This document shows positions 9,730-59,710 of a stretch of 64,000 nucleotides of DNA, piece after piece. Position 1 is the stretch's first letter. Each line of letters begins with the position of its first letter. A program made the translations under genes and the position numbers. Where the stretch lies: the NCBI RefSeq assembly GCF_040958095.1, contig NC_091227.1:21372794-21436793 (forward strand). Reading direction: 5' to 3'. The notes beneath the pieces are model-generated. The model had not been told where the DNA came from, made no database searches, and saw only the letters and a program-made list of their open reading frames with translations. This DNA is from Procambarus clarkii (Eukaryota; Arthropoda; Malacostraca; Decapoda; Cambaridae).

Positions 9730-10724
9730 TTAACCACCACTATTTCCAGGACTTCCTTTTTCTCCTGGAGGACCTGGGGGACCTGGTGGACCTGGAGGAC
9801 CCGAAGGGCCGACAGGTCCAACATCTCCTTTAGGTCCTGTAGGACCAGTGTTTCCTGGAAGTCCCTGAGATCCTGTATCCCCTTTAGGTCCCGGTAATCC
9901 TGGAGGCCCGATGTCTCCCTTTGCTCCTGTAGTGCCATTAGTCCCGGGTGTTCCTGGAATTCCATTAGTTCCTGATGGTCCTTGTGGTCCAATGTCTCCC
10001 TTTGGTCCTTGTGGCCCAATATCTCCCTGTGGTCCTGGAAGGCCTGGAAGCCCTTGGATTCCTTGATCTCCTTGGGGCCCTGGAAGTCCTTGATCGCCCT
10101 GGGAACCATTAAATCCTGGAGGACCTGGAGGACCAGGTAGACCATTATCACCAGGAGTACCTGGTATCCCATTAGTACCGTTAATGCCATTTACACCAGG
10201 ATCGCCTGGGACACCTTGTATACCATCACTACCGTTTGTACCGGGAGTACCGTCCATCCCTTTTGGACCAACAGCGCCAGGACTCCCGTTGTCACCGGGA
10301 AGACCTGGCGGGCCAACGCTCCCGTTATTACCGGGAGGACCTGGTGGGCCAACGCTCCCGTTATTACCGGGAGGACCTGGTGGGCCAACATTCCCGTCAG
10401 TGCCGGGAAGACCTGGTTGACCATCATTCCCGTCATTACCGGGAGGACCTGGTGGGCCAACAGTCCCATTATTTCCAGGAGGACCTGGTAGGCCAACACT
10501 CCCGTTACTACCGGGAGGACCTGGTAGGCCATCACTCCCATTATTACCGGGAGGGCCTGGAGGACCAGAACTCCCATTACTACCGGGAGGGCCTGGAGGA
10601 CCAGAAATCCCATTATTACCGGGAGGACCTGGAGGACCGGTTGTACCATTAATCCCCGCGGAACCAGTAAGGCCAGGGGGACCAGGGGGTCCTGGAGGGC
10701 ACTGGATACTACAAGTCTGCGTAC
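9730..10724 (-). CDS. Gene A exon 4: Cys-rich neck and collagen stalk with internal 36-bp repeats
   Basis: The acceptor (TTACAG) is followed by GT, which completes the sixth Cys of D2. Two extra cysteines follow at residues 156 and 160 (motif [12 protein letters not shown]) just before Gly-X-Y begins. Between about 10640 and 10290 the stalk is made of ten near-identical 36-bp units encoding a 12-residue GPPGxNGxxGxP block. The remaining ~180 residues are an ordinary uninterrupted collagen run ending GNSGG-stop. No C-terminal non-collagenous trimerisation domain is present. The extra neck cysteines could cross-link chains, as in collectins and ficolins (inference). Confidence 0.88.
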
Positions 10725-58100: not shown

Positions 58101-59710
58101 TATACGACTTAAACACATAATATGCAAGATATTCTTACATGAAACGTCAACTTGTTCAGAAATATTTAAAAGTAAAAACTCAGAAGTGAATGATAAAGCC
58201 TCACCGCGTGATGGAGTGTTAATGCAGCAGACTTCATCTTGCCCCTGGCAGCCATGTTGAGAAGAGGTGACGTCACAGGCTTTGGCGGGAACACATCTCC
58301 CGCCAGCCGCCTCACAGTCCCTCTTGCCGCCCTGCACAGATAACTATTGTTAACATTTTACGTTTTATCTTGATAAATTTCTCCATAATAAACATTTATT
58401 TTTTGGAGACACAATTATCAAATTTTTTTGCCGCATTCCTATTTTTGCTACAGTAATCTCTCGTGGTGTCAATTTCAATGATCTCTTGTTATGTTACTCG
58501 TGTCTAGAGGTAGGTACCCCCTACCTCAGGATACTTCTGAGGTACTGAGGTTCTATGAAAATAAGACAGTTGTTATAGTTTCATAACAACTACGCTGTAT
58601 AAACAGTGTATTTTTGCCTTGAACTATGTTTGCTCCAATGTATGCTTACAGAGAAAGTAGTCAGATCTTGTAGTAACTCTCCCGTGGTTGACGGGCAAGA
58701 AGTTCAACACCAAAGTACACTGGGTTGAATACCATGTCTAAGACGGTACTTTTTACAAAGAGGTTACAATGTTTGTTAGAACAGAGAGGGTAAAGAAATT
58801 GGTAAATGTTTATACAATTACCCGATCATGTGAGTATCGTTTTCGTACAACCACCCCGTCAGGGAAGTATTCATACAACTACCCGGTCACCGGAGTATTC
58901 ATATAACAACTACCCTGTCACGGGAGTATTCATACAACTACCCTGTCACGGGAGTATTCATACAACAACTACCCTGTCACGGGAGTATTCATACAACTAC
59001 CCTGTCACGGAAGTATTCATACAACTACCCTGTCACGGAAGTATTCATACAACTACCACCGTGACAAGATCACATCACTAATCCTTCCCCATATCTTTTG
59101 TTCGACAAATATCTTTGTAAACAATCAGATAATACCCCTAAAAACGGTCACCAGGTCTAGACGGTGTTTAGTACCCGCTTTCCGGATAAATGTGAAAACA
59201 TGTTAAATTTTTAGATGAATCTTTTTAGGAAAATTGGGTTTGGTTCAAATTTCATTAAATCCCAATGAAAATATAAAAAAATTATTTAAATTTTCTTTCG
59301 AGCATAACTTTTTCAGAAGATTTGACTGATATTTGGGTTTATTATGAGGAGTTACGGGAGAAGTTAAGAATAACTTGCTGATGTGAGTCAACTAGTTCAA
59401 ATACAAGATAATCTTTCCTTCAACTGAATCGATTTAAAAGTTTGAAACTAAATTTTATTATTATTAATAAGGATATTGCTTCCAGAATACTTGAATATAA
59501 AATATGAAAGTTAGTCATGAGTATATGAACGAAGTAAGAAATATGTTAAGCTACAGTTTCTTGATACATTCTGTTGTACATCAAGTTTGTATACTAACGG
59601 ACCGAAGCGTAATATCGTTTGTTGGTACTTCAAAATGTTTGTGGACTAACCTGAACTTGTGACGACACCACCACCACCAGCAGCAGCGCTCTTACTACCA
59701 CCTTCATCAT
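51104..59710 (-). CDS. Gene D: secreted double six-Cys (defensin-like) collagen protein, 4 exons, 512 aa
   Basis: Exons (minus): 59710-59651, 58331-58205, 56294-56004, 52164-51104. Phases are 0, 1, 1 and donors are GTTAGT, GTGAGG and GTAAGT. Residues 1-20 are the signal peptide ([10 protein letters not shown]..., ending SSQVQ as in gene A). D1 is 21-62, the basic linker 63-130, D2 131-160, and the neck plus collagen 160-512. Two Met codons start the ORF. The first is chosen, but the second would cost one residue only. Intron 3 (3.8 kb) contains LINE relics on the opposite strand and a long TA tract. Intron 2 holds a minisatellite and TA tracts. Exons 3-4 are closest to gene C. The signal exon shares its SQVQ ending with gene A. 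Confidence 0.86.
52208..52360 (+). pseudogene. RLE-type LINE fragment beside gene D exon 4
   Basis: ccaataggatcagagactctt and catggggagagaatgc ... gaaggatattggttg align with 42660-42760. Its position relative to exon 4 is the same as in gene C. It is more eroded. Confidence 0.7.
52512..53480 (+). pseudogene. RLE-type non-LTR retrotransposon 3' end
   Basis: Frame 1 (52515 to about 52900) contains [20 protein letters not shown], then the zinc motif [19 protein letters not shown] short local duplication (acactagacagtgtg twice) shifts the frame. Frame 2 continues [20 protein letters not shown], which fits the PD-x(12-14)-D core of the restriction-like endonuclease. Then come [16 protein letters not shown] and [15 protein letters not shown] at 53372. 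AATAAA lies near 53450 and poly-A at 53470. It is antisense within intron 3 of gene D. Confidence 0.8.
53608..53893. repeat. (TA)n tract with ttta and ga variants
   Basis: Long TA array in intron 3 of gene D, preceded by the LINE tail gaggctgtgggtccctataa. Confidence 0.95.
54138..54226. repeat. (CA)n microsatellite
   Basis: About 44 CA units in intron 3 of gene D, followed by an L-tail LINE end (gaggcggaaccaaagagcca) at 54255-54310. Confidence 0.95.
54430..55385 (+). pseudogene. CR1/Jockey-like LINE reverse transcriptase relic
   Basis: [20 protein letters not shown], then the catalytic box reads FAKDAK instead of [28 protein letters not shown] and [14 protein letters not shown] follow up to the stop at 54981. 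Broken frames continue as [20 protein letters not shown] and then RGHRFKL ... [16 protein letters not shown] to about 55378. Confidence 0.8.
55395..55975 (+). pseudogene. LINE C-terminal end (L-tail family, copy 3)
   Basis: [38 protein letters not shown], then [19 protein letters not shown] and [17 protein letters not shown] at 55871 with the family UTR. It ends about 25 bp before exon 3 of gene D. Confidence 0.8.
56004..56294 (-). CDS. Gene D exon 3: basic linker plus D2 module
   Basis: Residues 63-159. The acceptor is TTTAGCAG. The linker start (ENRKVKINK) differs from B and C, while [12 protein letters not shown] and D2 match C. There are three Gly before NTC (four in B and C). D2 cysteines are at 131, 138, 145, 153, 159 and 160; net charge is about +7. 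Confidence 0.86.
56603..56775 (+). repeat. Dispersed repeat R1 (copy 4)
   Basis: ctaccacagacgttatcttg with a small insertion, then gtggccacacatttaatatc and ttctgtcgtccatgat. Confidence 0.65.
56925..57289. repeat. (TACA)n then (TA)n tracts
   Basis: TACA units at 56925-56970 grade into TA to 57175. After gcgaacaagccagaatggtc TA resumes at 57206-57289. Confidence 0.92.
57420..58200. other. Rest of intron 2 of gene D
   Basis: 57590-58085 carries broken LINE-like text (tatgcagctcaagcatggaa, then tggaatggacttgaacgagag), the same region as WSPHQ and KWNGL of LINE ORF2. No intact frame was found. Confidence 0.4.
58205..58331 (-). CDS. Gene D exon 2: D1 six-Cys module
   Basis: Residues 21-62. Cysteines are at 26, 33, 39, 48, 55 and 56 with the family spacing. 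Net charge is about -1. It has diverged from the B/C pair at several positions ([16 protein letters not shown]) but keeps length and phases. Confidence 0.87.
58845..59060. repeat. ~30-bp minisatellite in intron 1 of gene D
   Basis: Eight or so units of ccctgtcacgggagtattca plus tacaacta, some with an extra caacta. Confidence 0.8.

Follow-up and report, generated by a model that had tools for sequence, protein, structure and literature searches.

What do the proteins do that are encoded by a row of related genes on contig NC_091227.1 of the decapod Procambarus clarkii? The DNA analysed here, called the window, is a stretch of 64,000 nucleotides (contig positions 21372794-21436793), and the family genes lie on its minus strand, at window positions 9730-59710. 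In all four genes, A to D, the predicted order is a signal peptide, a six-cysteine module (D1), a linker rich in lysine and arginine, a second six-cysteine module (D2) and a collagen stalk of Gly-X-Y triplets. This predicted architecture is well supported. For the function, the best reading is a secreted, multivalent, cationic defence collagen; judged from sequence, we give it a probability of about 0.5.

The reading draws on the domain order and intron phases in the four genes, the splice sites of a larger array, the homology between D1 and D2, the matches of D2 in the PDB, a cysteine spacing like that of panusin (a beta-defensin-like peptide of spiny lobster haemocytes), the charges, the Pfam collagen matches and a tandem expansion with variable stalks. 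The order, the phases, the tandem array, the D1-D2 homology and the cationic character of linker and D2 are read from the sequence; the rest of the reading concerns what such a protein would do.

Genes A-D are gene predictions, reconstructed from GT..AG exons. Exon 1 encodes the signal peptide, which ends in Val-Gln in each gene, exon 2 encodes D1, exon 3 the linker and D2, and exon 4 the stalk and the stop codon. The predicted lengths are 482 residues for A, 405 for B, 506 for C and 512 for D. In window positions (a slash marks a splice site) the exons are:

15215-15295, minus strand: gene A exon 1, signal peptide, with ATG, hydrophobic core and the end CAG/GTTGGT in phase 0
13781-13907, minus strand: gene A exon 2, D1 with its six Cys at 13800-13892; borders AG/GT in phases 0 and 1
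13128-13373, minus strand: gene A exon 3, basic linker and D2, whose last Cys codon spans the intron
9730-10724, minus strand: gene A exon 4, stalk of 106 Gly-X-Y triplets with 0 interruptions, two extra Cys ahead of the stalk
38053-38118, minus strand: gene B exon 1, signal peptide
37671-37797, minus strand: gene B exon 2, D1
36084-36377, minus strand: gene B exon 3, linker and D2
30678-31408, minus strand: gene B exon 4, stalk of 76 triplets, one extra Cys ahead of the stalk
47998-48063, minus strand: gene C exon 1, signal peptide
47129-47255, minus strand: gene C exon 2, D1
44829-45122, minus strand: gene C exon 3, linker and D2
41569-42602, minus strand: gene C exon 4, stalk of 109 Gly triplets with one interruption
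59651-59710, minus strand: gene D exon 1, signal peptide; a TATA-like site precedes the ATG by about 52 bp
58205-58331, minus strand: gene D exon 2, D1
56004-56294, minus strand: gene D exon 3, linker and D2, beginning at 56294 or 56297
51104-52164, minus strand: gene D exon 4, stalk of 108 Gly triplets with three interruptions

The intron phases are 0, 1 and 1 in all four genes and every reading frame is unbroken. At the junction of exons 3 and 4 (TGCT/GT) the last Cys codon of D2 is split (T/GT) in each gene, with the GT coming from the collagen exon. Identical phases, intact frames and one spliced gene per unit in the order D1-linker-D2-stalk had all been proposed in an earlier, sequence-based annotation of this DNA (the original prediction), and the predicted exons and compatible splice sites of the four genes bear this out. 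Two details concern single genes or a subset. In gene D, exon 3 could open at either of two AG acceptors that are separated by three bases and share a frame (56294-56297, minus strand), which would allow two forms with a difference of a single residue. Further, B, C and D have in common an element, GAAACACCTG, at most 120 bp upstream of the start codon.

Chance motifs can be rejected. The six-cysteine pattern, which was fixed after the genes were already known, has 8 matches in the window, compared with 0 in 40 first-order Markov windows, and for Gly-X-Y runs of at least 15 triplets the numbers are 4 and 0. A looser six-cysteine pattern gives one additional, unrelated match at window 52627-52755.

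The window genes belong to one single-strand array of about 190 kb (contig positions 21363995-21554217). In genome-wide searches, made in the window's own 4.03-Gb genome, D1 gives 15 rows that correspond to 14 exons, two rows being pieces of one frame-broken exon; all are on NC_091227.1, at 21369397-21550968. D2 gives 13 rows within the same array stretch, and these searches found neither module elsewhere in the genome. A hemocyanin exon of this genome fits a crustacean source: it matches the PDB entries 6l8s and 1hc1, which are crustacean, at E 1.6e-112 to 7e-110, whereas 3ixv, the entry next in rank, has 2.1e-55. In eleven array genes the frame is intact throughout the parts checked, namely signal peptide, D1, D2 and stalk. 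Those beyond A-D are named g1, g6, g7, g8, g11, g12 and g13, with g1 directly downstream of gene A. Three other units have a broken D1 (21512854), an unresolved collagen junction (D1 at 21489767, D2 at 21488529) and a lone D1 (21496818) that lies near stretches read as N. About 18 kb of the 233.9-kb stretch reads N, so the exon and gene counts are lower bounds. A signal-peptide exon precedes 13 of the 14 D1 exons, and in 8 of these 13 a TATA-like site lies 49-58 bp before the possible ATG. The tandem family of the original prediction is thus real, but it is larger than the four genes then counted, and beyond the window it includes damaged copies.

The array contains two copies, at 99.87% identity, of a 25.5-kb stretch that carries two genes (about 21470220-21495677 and about 21503700-21529136), either by a very recent duplication or as an assembly artefact. 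One copy has the frame-broken D1 and the other the unresolved collagen junction.

Are the heads and the stalk one gene? All 13 D2 exons of the array end in TGCT/GT, and 12 of them are followed by a downstream in-frame AG/GT collagen acceptor that restores the last Cys; each of these acceptors has 7 or more pyrimidines among the 12 bases before it and was chosen by hand from several in-frame AG sites. This conserved pair of donor and acceptor favours splicing of exon 3 to exon 4. An exon-3 acceptor that reaches the threshold of 8 or more pyrimidines among the 13 bases checked is present in 10 of 13 genes; g6, g11 and the copy whose D1 lies at 21489767 have none that strong.

A collagen exon that starts a gene of its own would need a Met codon, and we therefore counted Met codons in the open frame ahead of the collagen acceptor. 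There are none in A, B, g11, g12 and g13, one each in C, g6, g7 and g8, and three each in D and g1. Collagen exons with their own starts, which the original prediction had named as evidence against itself, are thereby ruled out for some copies, among them A and B. In C the sole Met is six residues from the splice site, and in D, where the first of the three is 23 residues away, the Met test alone does not settle the matter. When intron 3, whose start lies for example at window 44821-44829 and 55996-56004, is left unspliced, a stop follows one to three codons past D2 in 8 of the 11 D2 rows examined, which makes an isoform with two heads and no stalk possible. These stops and the Met codons of six genes are what favours the view that chance has interleaved separate genes for heads and for stalks, or that intron retention gives a heads-only product with the collagen exon unjoined. 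Against it stand the 12 of 13 compatible pairs and the five genes free of Met; we rejected separate genes as the principal explanation on these grounds and regard the whole alternative as very improbable.

The two heads are small and alike. In the 11 genes measured (two further two-headed genes, one with a broken D1, are omitted) the cysteine spacing is 6-5-8-6-CC in D1 and 6-6-7-5-CC in D2, with 6-6-7-6-CC in D2 of gene A. Both modules fit the approximate beta-defensin pattern C-x6-C-x3-6-C-x7-10-C-x5-6-CC in all 11. A profile comparison of D1 with D2 (hhalign) gives a probability of 94 and an E-value of 1.4e-7, which points to a probable internal duplication. The net charge is +5 to +7 for D2 and +15 to +17 for the linker, which is 56-73 residues long in the window genes.

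For comparison with PDB and Pfam, head profiles were built from 7 D2 and 8 D1 sequences, chosen from 13 and 14 exons. Searched at E-values up to 10, the D2 profile has four PDB matches only: Defensin-BvL (E 0.0034), which we take to be a platypus beta-defensin-fold protein, and three chains of the tick carboxypeptidase inhibitor (E 0.013-0.031). All four are beta-defensin-fold chains; the tick inhibitor consists of two beta-defensin repeats (PMC6339383, excerpt). In Pfam, Inhibitor_I68 (PF10468) appears below threshold in 3 of the 4 window head regions, at best with E 0.0026 and with 18.6 bits under a cut-off of 25 bits; it also matches 6 of 7 D2 sequences weakly, and Defensin_int matches 1 of 7 D2 sequences weakly (E 0.0057). 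For D1 the weak matches are CLIP_1 in 5 of 8 sequences (best E 0.035; the member shown has 11.7 bits, the cut-off being 26) and, once each, CLIP_SPH_mas (1 of 8), Paramecium_SA and Toxin_12. The last two, like pXO2-34, CGI-121, GRP and New_glue among the weak head matches, look like chance. Clip domains and beta-defensins have a common cysteine arrangement (PMC11335235, excerpt), so the weak leads from D1 and D2 agree in the type of fold. Genome-wide, PF10468 gives 2 weak rows elsewhere, none over the cut-off; PF18322 gives 5 rows and C1q 9 rows elsewhere, none of them on the array contig. Of the two defensin-like heads originally proposed, D2 does look beta-defensin-like, if weakly, by PDB and Pfam; D1 shares its ancestry with D2, yet clip domains are among the weak Pfam matches of D1 itself.

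The same matches suggest another use of the heads, in which a collagen rod would present them as protease inhibitors or as regulatory modules of the clip kind. The I68 and CLIP leads are its evidence, together with the tick inhibitor, which resembles these proteins in having two beta-defensin repeats (PMC6339383, excerpt). The predicted chain here, however, continues from the last CC of D2 into the stalk and leaves no free C-terminal tail, and the Pfam scans of heads and stalks contain no protease domain. It is through such a free C-terminal tail that the tick carboxypeptidase inhibitor acts. We consider this use of the heads improbable. Membership in the I68 family was rejected on the sub-threshold PF10468 scores and the missing tail, and membership among clip domains on CLIP models that stay under their cut-offs.

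The window stalks match collagen in Pfam. PF01391 exceeds its cut-off in all four window stalks (135-183 bits), which have 76-109 Gly triplets and 0-3 interruptions. Elsewhere in the array the stalk of g1 has 324 triplets with 17 interruptions, and in g8, g12 and g13 there are 52, 99 and 21 triplets without Gly in the counted register. Extra Cys stand directly ahead of the stalk, two in A, two in g1 and one in B. Between D2 and the stalk there are units of the type GGP(A/E)HHG, one in C, two in D, three in g6 and four in g7; in the window they lie at 42565-42602 (C) and 52110-52164 (D). One similar unit is present in each of B, g12 and g13. The repeat is possibly a metal-binding or a spacer repeat. 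N-glycosylation sequons exceed the triplet permutation (p<0.05) in 8 of 11 stalks (A, C, D, g6, g7, g8, g12 and g13), with 12 in gene A where 3.8 are expected; these p-values are too small because of internal repeats in the stalks. No excess is seen in the stalks of g1, B and g11. Past the stop of gene A (about 9588-9732, minus strand) another frame is open for about 45 codons and holds a Cys-Ser-Cys motif, and g1 has an in-frame Cys-Ser-Cys near its C-terminus. The frame after gene A is possibly the trace of an older C-terminal domain.

Conservation follows the predicted exons. For nine array genes (B, C, D and six more, without the more diverged A and g1) the mean identity per 30-column block lies at 0.88-0.99 across most of D1 and at 0.91-1.00 across D2, reaching 1.00 where D2 ends. 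Just upstream of D1 it drops sharply to 0.33-0.47. After D2 the drop is also sharp, with 0.60 over the opening 30 bases of intron 3 and 0.23-0.42 beyond them, while after D1 identity declines gradually (0.77, 0.61, 0.56, then lower). The predicted exon borders thus agree with conservation, sharply so before D1 and after D2.

To describe selection we pooled the ratio of nonsynonymous to synonymous divergence (dN/dS) over the 55 pairs of 11 genes, leaving out the copies with the broken D1 (21512854) and the unresolved junction (D1 at 21489767). The values are 0.97 for D1, 0.66 for the linker, 0.78 for D2 and 0.55 for the stalk. Two cautions apply to them: the pairs depend on one another, and both head modules are short. 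Only in the stalk and, to a lesser degree, in the linker is purifying selection plain. Synonymous divergence (pS) is 0.11 in D1 and 0.18 in D2, against 0.38 in the linker and 0.45 in the stalk. The low values in the head exons suggest gene conversion, or constraint on their DNA or RNA.

How could such a protein work? If it is a defence collagen, the secreted chain would carry, near its N-terminus, two homologous six-cysteine heads with a strongly basic linker between them. Each head would take a beta-defensin-type fold, with probable bridges Cys1-5, 2-4 and 3-6. Three chains would wind into a rod, for the window genes roughly 65-95 nm long (76-109 triplets of about 0.86 nm, the rise of collagen per triplet). 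A three-chain rod brings six heads and three basic linkers together at one end. This cluster could bind negatively charged surfaces by avidity, most likely microbial ones, in haemolymph or on epithelia. It would then work like other defence collagens, with the heads at the end opposite to those of C1q and the collectins.

Several observations weigh against this defence function. D1 is near neutral (net charge -3 to +2), the PDB matches of D2 are weak, and the five PDB matches of the D1 profile (eIF1 and merozoite protein) are none of them relevant. None of the four window head regions has a Pfam match that reaches its cut-off. At E 0.01 the window stalks match no Pfam family besides collagen, so no known trimerisation domain is seen, and the C-termini differ among many paralogues. 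Further, positive selection is frequent in immune genes, and the 11 genes show no sign of it in D1, D2, linker or stalk.

The main alternative is a structural or adhesive collagen, in which heads and basic linker cross-link or stick chains together, as in egg cement, a cuticle-gland secretion or basal matrix. Collagen joined to cysteine-rich domains ending in CC is the plan of minicollagens (PMC4863159, excerpt). The extra Cys ahead of some stalks, the His-containing units, the sequon enrichment and head dN/dS values near 1 rather than above it all suit such a material. The cysteine spacing does not, being unlike the minicollagen CX3CX3CX3CX3CC; nor do the PDB matches of D2, which are defensin-fold chains without exception. 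The even number of cysteines per head likewise suggests bridges closed within each head. We find a structural role somewhat unlikely, though less so than a protease-related one. Should it be true, the family would be a new cysteine-headed collagen material.

Other features of the window are few. Retroelement fragments lie between the genes at 25170-26135, 48508-49125 and 54427-54978, all on the plus strand; RNase H and reverse transcriptase matches from Pfam occur in 3 of the 10 long open reading frames scanned. A minisatellite at 8653-9357 (unit of 45 bp, about 15 copies) lies directly downstream of gene A, and TA arrays are many elsewhere in the window. The Rfam scan has 0 matches, the NCBIfam scan weak and irrelevant ones only, and the PADLOC scan none; D1 has no match in phage records and D2 no relative in viral contigs.

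The component parts are already known, and the combination was not found described: in the titles and abstract openings of the literature searched, where most subscription journals are outside coverage, no defensin-type module joined to collagen was found, nor any paper pairing "collagen-like domain" with "defensin-like domain". A tentative view, which we hold at somewhat less than even odds, is that an arthropod lineage built its own defence collagens, independently of C1q and the collectins, from a duplicated beta-defensin-type module, a basic stem and a rod, and expanded them to about a dozen genes with varied rod lengths. If so, they would be an independent route to multivalent innate immunity, with antimicrobial modules turned to surface binding.

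Among single parts a close counterpart is panusin, which is from a decapod and cationic like D2. Its bridges are 6-34, 13-28 and 18-35 (PMC10301333, excerpt), giving the spacing 6-4-9-5-CC, compared with 6-5-8-6-CC and 6-6-7-5-CC here. Unlike the present proteins it is a single free peptide of 39 residues, without second module, linker or collagen. The tick carboxypeptidase inhibitor (PF10468, PDB 1ZLH) has, like D1 and D2, two beta-defensin-fold modules in tandem, spaced 6-6-9-5-CC in the D2 profile alignment (E 0.013-0.031); it lacks collagen, and the heads here score under the Pfam cut-off. Rusticalin-like proteins have an N-terminal pair of cysteine-rich repeats resembling the tick inhibitor and beta-defensins, but the partner is a peptidase domain and the hosts named are chordates, a coral and a placozoan (PMC6339383, excerpt).

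On the collagen side, malacostracan class A scavenger receptors are crustacean pattern-recognition proteins, some with a collagen domain, but they sit in the membrane and carry SRCR, C-type lectin or lysyl oxidase domains (PMC5437397, excerpt). None of these three domains has a Pfam match in the window head regions. Cnidarian minicollagens join six-cysteine domains ending in CC to collagen; they differ in the pattern CX3CX3CX3CX3CC, in having 12-16 triplets, in cysteine-rich domains at both ends and in polyproline stretches (PMC4863159, excerpt). Their cysteine-rich domains cross-link or stick chains together in nematocyst walls. Minicollagen membership was rejected, as neither the cysteine pattern nor the length of 12-16 triplets is found here. 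Membership among collectins, ficolins and C1q was likewise rejected: the four window head regions and the stalks have no Pfam match to C-type lectin, fibrinogen or C1q. The heads most familiar from defence collagens are lectin, fibrinogen and C1q domains, and in collectins, ficolins and C1q the heads are C-terminal. The proteins predicted here likewise set small heads on a collagen rod, but at its N-terminal end.

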